DNA from: Nitzschia sp. DOCU1
Lineage: Eukaryota; Bacillariophyta; Bacillariophyceae; Bacillariales; Bacillariaceae
DNA: 64,000 nucleotides
Direction: 5' to 3'
Assembly: GCA_951394045.1 (NCBI GenBank)
Contig: OX595993.1
Coordinates: forward strand, 620,001 to 684,000
Part shown: one piece after another, positions 51,755 through 59,925 of the stretch
Numbering within the stretch: position 1 is the first letter of the stretch
Layout: each line of letters opens with the position of its first letter
Translations under genes and position numbers: made by a program
Notes under the pieces: model-generated
Seen by the model: the letters and a program-made list of their open reading frames with translations, nothing else
Told to the model about the DNA's origin: nothing
Databases searched by the model: none

Positions 51755-53335
51755 ATGCTCTTCCGACGACCACCTGTATCCTTGCCCGAAGTGGAGCCCC
51801 TGGCCAGTAATCAATCTGCGCCCCCCTCTCCGCAACAAGCACATCAATATCGCAGCAGCTCTTATTGCAAGAGTTTCCGATTTCAATGTGGCATGTGTTT
51901 TTGTGCCTTGTTAATGCTAGTTAACGTTCTGTATTGGAACTTAATGGTGCCCCAGCCGCCCCTGACGTTGCCCTCCTTGGAGCCGTGGCAACTTCCACGA
52001 ACCAAGGTACACGCTGTTTTGTTTTTCAAGGAAGAATCTCATGCCTTGGTGGAAGTGCTGTTGAATTTGTATTCTCAGGGGTTAGATCATGTTGTTTTGG
52101 TGGATAACATGTCTGTACACCCCCTTCCCTATAACGTCATTGATTTGCTTCGTCGGAAGAACTTTGTAACGCTGTGGCATGATCCCCATAAAATGGCGCA
52201 AAAACGAGCCTATGTCAAAGCCTCTCAGCTGTCCCGATGGAAAGGAGCGGACTGGTTAATAGCGGTAGACGCCGATGAATTTCCATATGCGACACAGCTT
52301 GGAAGCTTGCAGGCCTACTTGACTTTGCGCGACAGTGAAGTTTGTTCAATTGCTATACCATTTCGAATGTTTGGAAGTGATGGACGAGAAGAACAACCCA
52401 ATTCCTTAGTCCATGGATTCGTATGGCGTTCAAATACTACATTAAAAGTACCGGCCTACAAAACAGTCAGTCGAATGGGTTGTACGTTATGGATGGCGAT
52501 TCATCATGCAGGCATCCTGCCAAAAGATGCTCTGAATAGATTTTCAGCCATTGCAGGATTCGATCGCGATGATTCACCAACAGTCGATGAACGGTTAGAA
52601 GCGGTAGCTCCAGATTTGGTGACGAATCATTATAGATACCAATCCCACAAGTTCTATTTGGATATTAAAGGAACAAGAGGTAAATCCTTGGCCATTGACC
52701 CACAACGAGATGAAACGACATTTCGGGCCGGAAATCACAATCATACCTTGGACTTTACCCTGAAAGAGAAGGTATCGGCGCGATTCCCATCTTTATATGG
52801 TCCCGCTGACAAAGGAAAAGATGATTTGGCGCTTCAATCAAATTTGAACTATACATCGCCATGGCCGCTCAAGAATGTTCAAGCTGCTTTGCAAGAGCTG
52901 GAACGACATCAAGTGTTGGTGATTATGGATGCCGACAATACGCTTCCAGATACATTGGCCATTGCAACTCGCAATGCTGCCATTTTGGATCCCACCTTGG
53001 ATTGTGTTGTGCGAGTTCCGCCCGGTCATGTGGAATCCGTTATTCATTCGAAACTTTTGGATTTGTGCAAAGCCGTGGAGGCACACCCGGAAACCCAATC
53101 ATGGCAAGACTTTGTACAAGCCATGGTCCATACTTATCAATCGCATTATAAAGGGTTCGTGGCAGTCCCCCAACATGTTAGACTTCCAGTGGGATTAGAA
53201 ACGGCACCCCTGCGCAAGGCCGCCATTGCAGCCTCGACGAGTTCTCAGCACTGGCAAACATATGATTTGACAAAGGATATTCGGGTTCAAGTGTGTAGTA
53301 GTAGTGGTTATGACGGCGGCAGAGGCAAGAGGTAA
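51755..53335 (+). CDS. type II membrane glycosyltransferase (GT92-like), copy 3
   Basis: 526 residues, intronless. It has the same anchor (about 44-64) and the same catalytic blocks as the other copies: HAVLFFKEESHALVEVLLNLYSQGLDHVVLVDNMS, LIAVDADEFPYATQLGS and VIMDADNTLPDTLAIATRNAAILDPTLDCVVRVPPGHVESVIHSKLLDLCK. It is closest to copy 1: long runs of the two genes are identical at DNA level, while the middle (about residues 220-340) is diverged. It lies ~20 kb from copy 1 in the same orientation. Likely the same Golgi activity with a different acceptor or expression pattern. Confidence 0.75.
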   Translation: MLFRRPPVSLPEVEPLASNQSAPPSPQQAHQYRSSSYCKSFRFQCGMCFCALLMLVNVLYWNLMVPQPPLTLPSLEPWQLPRTKVHAVLFFKEESHALVEVLLNLYSQGLDHVVLVDNMSVHPLPYNVIDLLRRKNFVTLWHDPHKMAQKRAYVKASQLSRWKGADWLIAVDADEFPYATQLGSLQAYLTLRDSEVCSIAIPFRMFGSDGREEQPNSLVHGFVWRSNTTLKVPAYKTVSRMGCTLWMAIHHAGILPKDALNRFSAIAGFDRDDSPTVDERLEAVAPDLVTNHYRYQSHKFYLDIKGTRGKSLAIDPQRDETTFRAGNHNHTLDFTLKEKVSARFPSLYGPADKGKDDLALQSNLNYTSPWPLKNVQAALQELERHQVLVIMDADNTLPDTLAIATRNAAILDPTLDCVVRVPPGHVESVIHSKLLDLCKAVEAHPETQSWQDFVQAMVHTYQSHYKGFVAVPQHVRLPVGLETAPLRKAAIAASTSSQHWQTYDLTKDIRVQVCSSSGYDGGRGKR

Positions 53336-53672: not shown

Positions 53673-56600
53673 ATGATGATGAACGTAATGGGGTCGCTCC
53701 TCCTGCCCCTGGTGGCTGTAGCAGCGTCGTCGGGAAGTGATGGATTTGACGCTTCCGTAGCCACTCTGATTTCTTGGCTGGAAGCACAGGGGGGATTTTT
53801 CTCAAAAGAAAAGCTGGAGTTTCGACATGTCGATCCAAACGACATAGGGAGTCCTAGGGGGTTATTTGCCAAGCAACCACTGGCCAAGAATGAAACGATT
53901 ATGGTGATTCCACACGCCTGTCTTCTCCAGGCACCACCCGATGCAAGGAAGAAGAAGAACAAGAACAAGAAGGCGAGAGAAGAAGATAGTGTTTGTGGTG
54001 CTGCCCGTGCTATATTATATCACTATCGGCAGGGAGAAAAATCTTTTTTCAAGGAGTACATTGCCCATCTTTTGGACGAGGTCACACATCGAGGGAAGAT
54101 CCCCGACCGATGGTCGGACGAAGGAAAGGAAATCCTAGATACCATACTCGGCGAGGAATTGCCGTCACCCTTAACAAAACGATCCTTTGAGGATGACTGC
54201 GATGGGTCGGGGGAGGATGAAATGGAAGAAGTTGCCTTTGAATTAGCCTTATCCCGTGCCTGGCATGGGACTATGGCGCCTCTCGTGGATATGATCAATC
54301 ATCGGGTACGTAGTGTAGGAAAAATGGTGAAGCGGCTTGAAGTTGCTGTATTGTTGTACCATTTTGCTAATATACTCTCTTTTCTACGTATCACATAGAA
54401 CGGCGATTGGTCAAATGTGGCATCCGAAGCAGGCTCGGGAGCAGAAAAGGGGGGGAAACCAGATGTACGGGTGTATACCGTCCGCGATGTAGGCGTCGAC
54501 GAGCAGTTGTACACCAAGTTCATCTACGACGACTACGAAACACTGGATATTCTGTCCGACTACGGATTGGTAGAAGAGTACCCGCAACGTTGGGCTTGGG
54601 ACTACCAATTTGATTCGGAGAGCGAGGATCTACCACTAGTGTTTGACCTGACTCGGGTAACGGAGGCCGATCCTTATTCCGGGGAACTTGTTCCGCGATT
54701 CAAGGTGACCTGGGCAACGAAGGCCCGGCCTGATCTACTCATGACAAGTATGATGGCAAGCCAGCTCCAAAGGCTGCAAGAGCTGGATAACTACGTGCAG
54801 GATGAGACCGAATCCTTACACTCCCACCATGAGCGCTACGTGATTCGCAAGTACCACGAGGCACTCAAACTAACGTTGAGATATATCATGTGGTCCAACT
54901 ACGATGAAGCTGTCAAGGCGATTGCATCGAAAGATAACTCCTCAACTCATTATTACTATGACACGCTCGAGAAAAGGGCTGCGATTTTCCCTTTCAATGA
55001 AGACCCCCCGTCTACTTGTCACCCTGAGCACCAGGCGCTTTCCGCGAATCACATCCTTTTCTACAGCTCCCACTCGCGGTATCAAGGAATTGAATTTGCG
55101 TATAGTTTCGCAGAGGATGATACGTGCCTTTCTATGGGTTTGGTCTGCCATTCATGTACTCAATTTCGAATCATCCACGAGCCTTTGATTCACTACCCCG
55201 CATCCTTTTTACCAGAAGTCAAGAGGGTAGCATATGTCGGAGGAGGAGACAATCTGCTTTTGACCGAGATTTTGAAGTATCCTTCCATTGAGCTCGTCGT
55301 GGGGATGGAGCTAGACCAAAACATCGTGAGATCTTGTTTTCGATTCACTGGGGCTCGACCCTACTTTGATGATCCACGTGTGGAATGGTGGTTTGGAGAC
55401 GCTACCAAAGCTGTTCTCACATTGCCATCGAGCTATCTAGGAAGCTTTGACTTGGTGATTGTCGACTTGAAAAACGAAGTATCCGACACTCTGAAGGTGG
55501 CGGATACGATCCCCTTCATGGACGCCCTTATGCTTCTACTGAAAGAACCTTATGGTGTCATTTCGAAACAGGAAGATTTCGTGGTCCGAAAGACCACTGG
55601 CTATGCCCGGTATACTGTAGAGCAGGAATATTTCGATATTGCACAAATCTGTCGCCAATCCTTCACGATTGGAAGCAATACTATCGATTTCTTGACGGCT
55701 CCTCAATTTGATCACAATGTTCCTCGGCTCTACTTGACAGAATCTTTCTTTGAACCCGAGACGAAATTCAAGAACTGGCACGACTTTCGTGATAATTTCT
55801 TTATGGAAACGGACGGGGTCCCTTCCACGGATGGGACTTGTACTGTTATCGACGACGACAGCGTTTCAAAGACTTCAACTCCTTCGAAGAAGTCCGGTGT
55901 TTTAATGGTGATTGAGGCAGAAGGTCTTTCTGGTGTCGTCAAGAACGAAGACGAGTTTGTCGGTGCAGTGACAAGGGCTTTGGCTTCTCAGGGATTTTCA
56001 GTCGATTCGGTTGATACTTTCAATCAAGACGGTGGCAATCGTTTCGACTCCATGCTGCTGTTCCGTGAGGGCTTAGTGGCTATTCGGAAACGGTCTGAAA
56101 TGTCGAATTATGTGGCCCTAGACATCCATCTTTGGGACGCCATTGACAAGGCGAATTCGCTCAAATCGGAACTTCTTGCCAGCATAGGTGGCAGTGATCA
56201 AACCGCGAGTTCCTATCGTTTCATAACGGGTGGCATGGAAGGAATATCAAAGGCGTCACATCTCTATAGCTACATTCAAGAAAAGGGGACTTGCTCGACA
56301 CCATCAGACTTGAATGCAACGTCGTCAGAAGGTCATGAAGAAGAGCCCGATTGGGCTGAATTGATCGTCAAGGTGATCCCATCTGAGACACCGTCGATTG
56401 TTGTTCTTTGTGGATCTGAAGGCGAAGTGTGCACCAGTCATGCAGCCCTGCGATCCAACAATGTTGATTTGATCGCATTGTATTCCTGCGAAGACGTCAC
56501 TAATATGGCTAGCGAACAACAACTGTTTTCGTGCGAAAGGAAAATGATGAACAAGCTTCGTGAAAGCAAGAAACACAAAGTCAATGGAGTTTGGCTGGAT

Positions 56601-57911
56601 GTCGAAGCCAAGCCTTTCATGGCTAGAGTGTTGTTGCGCCTACTCACCAGTATGCCTGGCAGGGAGGAAATTCTCGACATGGACAGCTACGTGATTTTTA
56701 CTGGGTTGCGAGGAGAAGAATGGCGCGAGGTGTTCGTTGAGAGGTTTCGTACCGAAATTTCCCCTTTTACTCCGGCGAAAGAGGCCAGGCTTCGCCTGTC
56801 AGACGGAAGAAAATTTTCTTTGTTCTCGGCTGGTGATGAACTATTTTATAACCATCTCGTGGACTTTCTGGGGGATCTACAGACGAGAACGGGGCACTTG
56901 GTGACCATCGATGGTGTGATGGTTGGGCATGCCGAATATGTGCCCGATTTTGAATTCAAAGCCTTTACCAACGCGGATTTTTTCGACCAAAAGGCGTATG
57001 AGCAGTGGACGAGCCAGCGCGCCATTGGGTTTCAAAGTCTTCTCCAGATGGAACAGCAAACACCTAAGCCACCACTAAAGTTCGGCGAAAGAGTTCTCTT
57101 TAAACTTACCGACAACCAAGGTATGGGCCTGTGGACGGATGTCGTCATTACCGATGTGAACGACGATTCGACATATAATATCAAGGGGCAACTGGTGAAA
57201 CACGAGGCCGATATCCCACGCGAACGTATTCGTCGATTGGATTTTGATTCCAGCGCACTGCCGCCACCGCAAATCGACATTGGTACACGGGTGCTGACTC
57301 TTCGTGGCCAGCCACATATCTGGACCCAAGGTTTTGTGCTTTCTCGACTCGAAGACGGAGCGAAGTATCAAGTCTGGTACAATGATGCCTTGGTGGAGGA
57401 AATTGCCATTCGCGGTATCATTCCAGAATTTGAGCCACCTCAGGAAATGGACTTGCCAAAGTTATCCATGGAGCTTGTTGGTGCTGCTTTCCGTAAGAGC
57501 TTACTGACTCTTCTAGTGGAAGAAAACGTTTCCATTCAACACGCGTCTCATAAGGTCGGAGATGGGAGTGTTATTACCGCTCTTTGGAAGACAGGCAATG
57601 CCATTTTGATATGGGATGGATCGTTACATCTCGACATGAACGTGTACATGGATGAAGAGGACCGTGAAGCCTTGGAACTGTTCCAATCAGACTTTGTGGC
57701 AAGGATCCCGTTTTTAGCTTCTGTAGCCTCGGACGAGCAGCCGCGAGGTTACGGTGGGGTCGTCAATTTTGCGAGTGAGCTCGCATACGACATTGATCCT
57801 CTCTGGTGGCCCGGCAGCAAGAAGTCCGGCGACGATAATCCTGTCCTGGAATATCCACAGGAGTGGGTCGTTGAAGTTGACGTCTTGCTGGAAGAACGAG
57901 AATGGGGATAG
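53673..57911 (+). CDS. SET / spermidine-synthase-like / AdoMetDC-like / Tudor-like fusion protein
   Basis: Exons are 53673-54305 and 54399-57911 (GTACGT...TAG), closing to 1381 residues. A short hydrophobic leader (MGSLLLPLVAVAAS) is followed by a SET domain of the Rubisco-LSMT type: RGLFAKQPLAKNETIMVIP, then PLVDMINHRNGDWSNV with the Asn-His pair across the intron, and LDILSDYGLVEEYP at its end. Residues ~430-650 look like an aminopropyltransferase: SSHSRYQGIEF, RVAYVGGGDNLLLTEILKYP (GGGD at 492-495), ELDQNIV and DLVIVDLKNE. A region at about 700-820 resembles AdoMet decarboxylase. Two Tudor/SH3-like barrels follow (FGERVLFKLTDNQG...LWTDVVITDV; GTRVLTLRGQPHIWTQGFVL), then an AdoMetDC-like end (WDGSLHLDMNVYMDEEDREALELFQSDF...DEQPRGYGGVVNF). 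The synthase Asp motif is altered. Role unknown. Confidence 0.72.
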
Positions 57912-58328
57912 TGTTCCTATCTTGTGGCCCGACTATCCATCCCTCTATTCTTATGAAGAGTGGCTCGTCAATGAGGGGATGGAAGGGTACGGCTATGAAG
58001 AACATTACGAATAGGAAACGAAGGATGGGGATGTCGAAGCAGCAGAATAGGACTTCTCACTCGGGATTAGTCCAATTACTTCAATCCCGAAACAGTCCCG
58101 TTTGACTCGCATGCGCGCCGCTCCGGCCAGCCATTTTTTTGGCGTGTTTCTTCTGTTGGGCCACCGACCGCCGGCGCGGCCAACGAGAAGACCACATCAG
58201 CATGTCCACATTAACTCCCCGTAGTAGATAAGCAAACCAACAAGACCTATTGTGATTCATCTAACATACCATACCATTCATCCAATGTCAAAGACGATGC
58301 TCCAGTCTGGAAAGGCTATGGGGGTTGC
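57912..58328. other. intergenic, no gene seen
   Basis: 417 bp between two genes on the same strand. Short overlapping frames after the fusion gene stop carry no motif. Confidence 0.5.
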
Positions 58329-59925
58329 ATGATAATGCAATCTTTCCTTTCGCCGGTTCTTCGATGTGATGTCCGATGGTTCGTAGTCGTCCTATACTTG
58401 TGGCTTCTCGCCGAAACCTTGGTGTTGATGAGGATGTGGCATCGATCACCCACACCAAATATCCTAAACGAAGTATATCCATCGCCATCAAAGGTCCTTG
58501 ATTATACGGGATCACTCTGGGCTGCATGGTCAGATCTACAAGGGGGCAAGGGTCTTCGTTTTACAGACGTCTGCCGGCGCCATTATGATCAGGGAAGACT
58601 CAAATCGACAAGAAGTGACGCTGGTGATCCATTCTGATTCTTCCAAACTTGATCGTTTGCGATTTGTGATACAGAGGTGGAATGGACTGGTCTCGGCTTT
58701 CGTCTATGTAGGAAGTGCTCTGGACTTGGAAAGAGTTTTGGATTTCTGTAGAGCAGAACCATCGCTCCCAGATTCTGCGTTTATACATGTGTACATGGAA
58801 AAGCAGCAACACGACTCTTCCTCAGCTGGTGGGGTCGTCCTTTCTACTATAGAGTATTATCCCCACAACACTCTAGCGCAGTTGGCCTTGGATTACTCGA
58901 CGACAAACTACTTTTTGGCACTAAATGTTGATTTTGTCACTCCCACCACACTTTCGCAATACTTAATCAAACTTTTGAGAACCAACAAGTCGACGTTGGT
59001 TCGAAAATTGATAAATCGCAAGCTAATGCTCTTGCCTGCATTCCAAACGAGCACGGTAATACAGGACTCGCAGTTACAACCAGGAACAGCGCCTCTGAAC
59101 GAGGTTCTACCGGAAAACAAAGCATTCGTGCACGCTTTTCTTCGAAAAGGGAAACTGGTTCCTTTTCATCAAGCCAGTGAAACAATGCCGGTGGATCATC
59201 ATGTGCCCACCAATTTCGATAAATGGCTGATAGATGTCGGAGTTGAAGAATCAACATCGGGGACGTCTTTGTCCTACCCTATTGATTACACTGTGGGCTT
59301 TGAGCCCTCTGCCGTACTGGGATACAACTCCAAAGCGCTACCAAAGTACTGGAATAACTTCCGGGGACTGGGATATAACACATGGACATGGGTTGCAGAA
59401 ACCTATCTGACTGGCTACGACTTGGAAGTGATGATGTGCGATGTTTGCTTTGTTACGCACCTTCCTCTCCACCCTCAAGGAATCGGCCAAACAAAGATGC
59501 AACTGCCCCCGCAGCAGAAAATCTATGAACAATGGAAGGGCTACCTCCAATCTCACTTTAGTTTGACCGACCTTGCAATGGATTGGATGCTTTTGGATTT
59601 AAGTAATTTGAAGAATGCCCATGTACAAGGCCCACCACCTAACGGCGGAAGGTCTTCCTCGTCATCCGAGATTGAAAAGCTTCCCCGACTTGTCGATTGG
59701 ACGGTTTGGAAAGGAAGAGTCGTGGGCCGAATATTTCACACGGGGCATACTTCAGCATCGTATTATGTCGACGGAGAATGGATTGGCACGGCGGCTATTG
59801 TCGTCCCAGGCGAAACGGCGGAAGTATTTGTCTTGAAATCTGGCATGACGGTTGCGTCGACATCCGGGCAACGCTACTATCTCAGTAATACGACTCTACG
59901 ACAGCTTTCTAAGGAGGTTGCTTGA
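58329..59925 (+). CDS. GT49-like glycosyltransferase with NxD in place of DxD
   Basis: Exons are 58329-58493 and 58567-59925, closing to 507 residues; the donor is a weak GTCCTT. The first exon carries the membrane anchor (WFVVVLYLWLLAETLVLM). The GT49-like domain includes LALDYSTTNYFLALNVDFVTP, LMLLPAFQT, VPTNFDKWL, YTVGFEPSAVLGYN and FRGLGYNTWTWVAETYLTGYDLEVM, in the same order as the GT49 gene at 5,496-7,526. The usual DxD is N175-V-D177. The C-terminal ~90 residues (VDWTVWKGRVVGRIF...YYVDGEWIGTAAIVVPG) are an extra beta-rich segment. A Golgi lumen location is likely; activity is uncertain. Confidence 0.75.

Follow-up and report, generated by a model that had tools for sequence, protein, structure and literature searches.

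A Nitzschia gene joining SET, aminopropyltransferase, AdoMetDC-like and tandem Tudor domains: one more of a family of diatom fusion proteins that are probably secreted

What might a single polypeptide do with a methyltransferase domain, an aminopropyltransferase, domains resembling S-adenosylmethionine decarboxylase (AdoMetDC) and a pair of Tudor barrels? The question is raised by a gene of the diatom Nitzschia sp. DOCU1 (assembly GCA_951394045.1), located at 53673-57911 on the forward strand of a 64,000-nt stretch (contig OX595993.1, 620,001-684,000, forward; hereafter the window, to which coordinates refer). A previous sequence-only reading described the locus as a single-gene fusion of SET, synthase-like, AdoMetDC-like and Tudor-like modules, and knew of no SET-containing precedent. 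The four kinds of module are each supported by profiles, and the SET, aminopropyltransferase (APT) and AdoMetDC-like domains identified belong, as had been supposed, to AdoMet-linked families; however, fusions that include a histone methyltransferase domain were already published in 2011, according to passages of two later papers (PMC3820600, PMC12029483), and the window gene is a further member of a fusion known in kind. The earlier description does not mention the signal-peptide-like N-terminus, the degenerate Rossmann domain, a second AdoMetDC-like fold in which the Tudor pair sits, or the large family of paralogues.

The modules were detected with unequal ease. Pfam matched Spermine_synth in the window protein (E 1.7e-16) and SET at 22.2 bits, just below the cut-off of 22.4, together with an ACT match (E 0.22) that was given no weight; AdoMet_dc and Tudor had no direct match in the window protein itself. 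These two are supported by Pfam at the corresponding place in relatives, by profile comparison (AdoMetDC) and by the fold model (Tudor and the second AdoMetDC-like domain). Relatives came from a search that scored only the 7993 candidates with the largest number of shared words; 127 reached E 0.001 or better and 120 were listed, and precomputed labels place SET and Spermine_synth together in 53 of these 120 and AdoMet_dc in 15. Fifteen relatives, several of them picked because such labels already named AdoMet_dc, Agenet or Tudor, were scanned with Pfam (three scans, E limits 1, 0.1 and 10), giving Spermine_synth in 15, SET in 14 and AdoMet_dc in 11 (four above the cut-off); P0026 (Agenet) and P0043 (Tudor_5) are also above the Pfam cut-offs. 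When a profile of 35 relatives was compared with PDB sequences, the matches ran along the chain in the order SET, synthase, AdoMetDC, Agenet, namely SETD3 and Rubisco LSMT at profile positions 32-248 (E 2.3e-6), spermidine synthases at 425-562 (E 3e-16), class 1b AdoMetDC at 692-790 (E 0.0016) and tandem Agenet at 1095-1198 (E 0.009). AlphaFold models, built from exon 2 only and therefore incomplete for the SET domain, gave fold support for the APT, for the tandem Tudor, which accounts for the two barrel-like repeats seen earlier, and for the second AdoMetDC-like domain near the C-terminus; structure prediction had been named as a check for these folds.

The predicted splice model joins two exons into 1381 residues with zero internal stops, confirming the one intron followed by an open frame that had been described. 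The NHR/NGDW motif, split by the intron, and GGGD (residues 492-495) are present as reported, and D-L-K-N-E occupies residues 567-571. In four copies from the same genome the GT-AG join that best fits the relatives is also in phase 0 and at the identical site, directly after the H-R codons, with introns of 65, 81, 72 and 86 nt. The window protein shares 44-49% identity with these four copies, with nonsynonymous differences (pN) of 0.34-0.36 against saturated synonymous differences (pS) of 0.76-0.78, so the reading frame has been maintained by selection. The claim of a single gene also held: in the predicted proteins P0002, P0015, P0020, P0024 and P0028 of diatom transcriptome sets, precomputed Pfam labels put SET and Spermine_synth on the same chain; a further transcriptome-set relative, P0016, is labelled with Spermine_synth alone. 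The N-terminus of the window protein is hydrophobic and signal-peptide-like, a hydrophobic N-terminal stretch being found in 63 of the 72 relatives tested, and the protein is probably secreted, judging from its sequence.

Active-site residues were compared in an alignment of 114 relatives (850-1700 residues; 12 of 126 were dropped by length) and 12 own-genome copies, seven of which entered the alignment as exons alone or lacked a complete splice model; counts are over relatives having a residue at the column, and the functional labels of residues follow studies of spermidine synthase, SETD3 and AdoMetDC. The window APT keeps D495 of GGGD, E515 and D517 of ELD, D545 of GDA and the catalytic D567. 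Among relatives the catalytic Asp is found in 114/114, the GGGD Asp in 111/111, the ELD Glu in 113/114 and the GDA Asp in 109/114. The second Asp of D-x-x-D is missing in 113 relatives and present in only one, and at this site human spermine synthase reads Asp-Leu-Thr-Ala. The earlier suggestion that D-L-K-N-E marks the synthase part as a scaffold was therefore rejected, since loss of the second Asp is a family trait. A conserved Tyr of the synthases, presumably equivalent to human Tyr79, is Ile470 in the window protein, while 103 of 109 relatives keep it, and the position of the catalytic Tyr of SET is occupied by Phe252 (Tyr in 79/95). The replacement of these two tyrosines would be a better ground for suspecting lost activity in the window copy.

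In the SET domain the N-H pair is retained as N209-H210 (among relatives, Asn in 49/87 and His in 78/87), and the Y-N-E-C...C block is absent. The SET part of the relative P0005 aligns weakly with SETD3 across the NHxNG motif and the AGEQ..Y block (E 0.03). Long helices that follow the domain in the models are possibly the counterpart of the substrate-binding lobe of LSMT; Rubis-subs-bind was not listed in the Pfam scans of the window protein and the 15 chosen relatives. Elsewhere in the genome, at C6:285-303 kb, several SET-type frames that are related to the SET part of the fusion (35-39% identity to exon 1) follow one another (L046, L048); the two loci that were read have hydrophobic N-termini, and the genome listing for Spermine_synth shows no match there.

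The first AdoMetDC-like domain is dead by its sequence, being without the cleavage residues: the cleavage Ser is replaced by Gly769 (Gly in 113/114 relatives) and the Cys by Trp790 (Trp in 112/114). In hhalign it matches the genome's own AdoMetDC segments, which were chosen with a pattern containing E-S-H (probability 79.7, E 1.5e-5). The Rossmann domain downstream, of class I methyltransferase type, is possibly a degenerate APT, matching the APTs of the same genome with a probability of 58.6 (E 9.5e-5) and a score of 35.0, where 30 column shuffles reached 19.5 at most; that it is a clear copy of the fusion family's own synthase domain was not borne out (hhalign probability 0.38). For the first and second AdoMetDC-like domains the profile comparison gave a score of 24.8 against a maximum of 14.2 in 30 column shuffles, with a probability of only 18; unrelated segment pairs were all below 1. 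The second domain had no match by sequence to own-genome AdoMetDC (probability 0.36). It is probable that an APT-AdoMetDC unit was duplicated within the chain, and the order APT, AdoMetDC, degenerate APT, AdoMetDC is accordingly likely, without being proved.

The tandem Tudor/Agenet region best matches the histone-methyl readers Sgf29, ADCP1 and 53BP1. Among the aromatic positions of the sequence alignment, candidates for a methyl-lysine-binding cage, those at 1123, 1137, 1186 and 1201 are kept, but at 1119, where 92% of 60 relatives have an aromatic residue, the window copy has Gly. The region is present in 61/114 relatives and 5/12 own copies; in copies devoid of it the Tudor stretch is absent and the flanking parts still align, in agreement with its insertion into the second AdoMetDC-like domain.

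The family is large. In the 52-Mb, 63-contig genome there are 12 copies with long open frames (the window gene, three on C11, one on C6, two on C16 and five on C15), broken copies with stops and frame changes at C9:367-371 kb (L055), C11:2049-2052 kb (L052) and C6:217-220 kb (L054), and partial pieces at C15:1388 and C15:1401 kb. The relatives whose names identify an organism are all diatoms: Thalassionema frauenfeldii, Nitzschia, Pseudo-nitzschia, Seminavis, Odontella, Corethron, Epithemia, Mayamaea, Cylindrotheca and a Bacillariaceae sp. A midpoint-rooted FastTree of 126 rows groups the Tudor-bearing copies of this genome, five in number, in a single clade (support 0.99) and places the seven Tudor-less ones within a separate clade of 37 tips (support 1.0), one tip of which has a Tudor region. 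The GGGD Asp is replaced in two paralogues, by Thr in L053 (C6a) and by Ala in L062 (C15e), so the synthase site seems to have decayed repeatedly in this genome. All residues checked are retained in the relatives P0001, P0002, P0005 and P0006. The same genome has six AdoMetDC-APT loci, at C1 (267, 762, 887 and 927 kb), C7:2554 kb and C6:2062 kb; ESH..HTWP..TCG is kept in four of the five that were read, without motif preselection (C6:2062 kb is outside this count), and at C1:887 kb, the remaining one, DAQ and ISG stand in their place, so that ESH and the Cys are lost. At three of these loci a hydrophobic segment precedes the AdoMetDC part.

The features are collected in Table 1. The end of the gene may lie beyond the stop at 57911, because the +1 frame, open to 58014, encodes a tail resembling that of the broken C9:367-kb copy; a sequencing slip, a frameshift or an unseen intron may be at its origin. 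Among 37 arithmetic GT-AG options for an intron linking this frame to the C-terminus, none has a donor resembling the GTACGT of the first intron. The neighbouring genes, at 51755-53335 and 58498-59925, are glycosyltransferases (GT2-like and GT49-like).

Table 1. Features of the fusion gene and of its possible extension, in window coordinates.
Feature	Residues	Position	Strand	Basis or remark
Exon 1	1-211	53673..54305	+	signal-peptide-like start (residues ~1-20) and first SET part; ends ..DMINHR
SET domain, SETD3/Rubisco-LSMT type	~62-275	53856..54590	+	Pfam, profile, alignment; split by the intron
Intron, 93 nt, GT-AG, phase 0		54306..54398	+	same position in four paralogue models
Exon 2	212-1381	54399..57911	+	stop codon 57909-57911
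Long-helix region following SET	324-389	54735..54932	+	helices in model
Aminopropyltransferase (spermidine/spermine synthase)	~412-676	54999..55793	+	Pfam, fold, alignment
First AdoMetDC-like domain (class 1b)	710-822	55893..56231	+	Pfam in relatives, profile comparison
Rossmann/class I methyltransferase-like domain		56349..56924	+	profile comparison, fold model
Second AdoMetDC-like domain, first strand		57018..57056	+	fold model
Tandem Tudor/Agenet, inserted in second AdoMetDC-like domain		57066..57443	+	Pfam in relatives, profile, fold model
Second AdoMetDC-like domain, remainder		57468..57761	+	profile comparison, fold model; ends near conserved PRGYG..VNF motif
Possible true C-terminal tail, +1 frame, Tyr/Glu-rich		57912..58014	+	likeness to tail of broken C9:367-kb copy; ends ..YSYEEWLVNEGMEGYGYEEHYE

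Taken as a whole, the window protein belongs to the tandem-Tudor subfamily of the probably secreted SET-APT-dead-AdoMetDC fusions of diatoms, which may modify silaffin-type lysines or polyamines in the lumen, a reading to which a probability of about 0.5 is given. The window protein would enter the lumen of the endoplasmic reticulum and Golgi, where its APT would take decarboxylated AdoMet made elsewhere, for instance by the AdoMetDC-APT fusions of the same genome, and add aminopropyl groups onto silaffin-type lysine side chains or growing long-chain polyamines; the SET domain would methylate lysines or amines of that same substrate, and the tandem Tudor would hold on to the substrate once methylated. 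The presence of methylating, aminopropylating and methyl-lysine-reading parts in a secreted protein fits the lysine chemistry of silaffins, in which, as described in part of PMC3820600, lysines occur in pairs or KxxK-type units, one bearing aminopropyl units and the other dimethylated. Both AdoMetDC-like domains, together with the degenerate Rossmann domain, could serve as a built-in dimer partner in the manner of human spermine synthase, whose inactive AdoMetDC domain is required for dimer formation according to an excerpt of PMC12803844; two such domains per chain suggest an internal dimer. Since both conserved tyrosines are lost, reduced or changed catalysis is likely in the window copy, which probably works slowly, has an altered specificity or acts chiefly as a binding partner. 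What weighs against this reading is that not one of the five Tudor-bearing own copies keeps every checked residue (the window protein, C6a and C11c are without both tyrosines, C11a is without that of SET, and C11b has both with an Asn at GDA), and that the two replacements of the window copy, Ile470 and Phe252, fall at positions where Tyr is the rule.

These same observations speak for a pseudoenzyme, which is possible and should be kept in view as a tentative explanation: both catalytic domains would have decayed, and the window copy would bind substrates or regulate other family members. The loss of the Y-N-E-C...C block points in this direction, as does the distribution of the changes, both of which are shared by C6a and C11c, its closest relatives among the copies of this genome, the former also having lost its GGGD Asp, and the SET change alone by C11a. 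However, GGGD, E515, D545 and the catalytic Asp567 are kept, the whole frame is under purifying selection, and replacing Tyr by Phe or Ile does not necessarily remove all activity. It is more doubtful that the family makes free polyamines (thermospermine, long-chain polyamines) with no action on proteins, the SET domain methylating free polyamine amines. The fold is shared with aminopropyltransferases that act on small molecules, but in the known examples SET domains of SETD3/LSMT type and tandem Tudors have proteins as their targets, and a reader module would be hard to account for with a free polyamine. In favor of such an activity, free N-methylated long-chain polyamines occur in diatoms (PMC3820600), and reviews propose this role for the fusions (PMC6356823, PMC12029483).

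A more specific version of the lysine-modifying reading, speculative and on balance unlikely, is that the chain is a single-chain pseudo-dimer, formed by a duplicated APT-AdoMetDC unit with a non-catalytic second half and a reader inserted in its second AdoMetDC fold, which would write and read methyl-lysine and aminopropylate the neighbouring lysine; if true, such a pseudo-dimeric writer-reader machine would account for the way in which dimethylated and aminopropylated lysines alternate in the KxxK units of silaffins. Very improbable is a role in the nucleus as a histone methyltransferase equipped with a Tudor reader, in which the polyamine-synthase-derived fold would be incidental: it would suit a SET domain joined to a tandem Tudor/Agenet whose best matches read histone methylation, but the N-termini, hydrophobic in most relatives, argue against it, and the most conserved core is the APT, the SET residues varying more. 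The merging of two adjacent genes in the model, to which the unsettled C-terminal end might lend some color, was rejected in view of the transcriptome-derived single chains, the 53 listed relatives with both domains and the single open frame that exon 2 provides from the SET C-terminus onward.

Several of these features have precedents. Michael (2011, FEBS Lett 585:2627) is reported to describe signal-peptide-bearing fusions of AdoMetDC, APT and sometimes histone methyltransferase, with dead-AdoMetDC versions as well and, in one case, a Tudor domain; a part in forming or attaching the polyamines of the silica shell was proposed for such fusions in 2011. Diatom AdoMetDC-APT-methyltransferase fusions with a proposed polyamine role are mentioned in passages of PMC3820600 and PMC12029483, and their AdoMetDC-APT part in passages of PMC6356823 and PMC12533330; the first of the latter two terms the function of the fusions uncharacterised, and 32 APT fusions have been counted in Nitzschia inconspicua, where further study was called for (PMC12803844, in excerpt). 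No activity test of such fusions was found in the parts of the open-licence literature consulted. Diatom fusions are proposed makers of silica polyamine chemistry, and the module map and active-site residue list presented here single out the members worth expressing (P0001, P0002, P0005 and P0006); in addition, the second AdoMetDC fold offers a testable reason for dead domains, an internal dimer.

Compared with the fusions of Michael (2011), as conveyed by citing papers, the window protein is similar in its diatom origin and in having APT, AdoMetDC and methyltransferase domains in one chain, and differs by the absence of two conserved tyrosines; the details added are an apparent internal duplication and the altered active sites of the window copy. 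Like human and animal spermine synthase, it carries an APT together with a class 1b AdoMetDC-like domain that is inactive (PMC12803844), both parts matching by fold, whereas the domain order is reversed and a second AdoMetDC-like fold, SET, Tudor and a signal-like N-terminus are added. The AdoMetDC-APT fusions of its own genome combine the identical two enzyme families, but with AdoMetDC first and with cleavage motifs that most of those read have kept. Similarly to SETD3, Rubisco LSMT and SETD6, the SET domain of the fusion family shows the NHxNG and AGEQ-x3-Y pattern; in contrast to them, the window protein has Phe at that Tyr, and its SET domain is found within a probably secreted multidomain protein.

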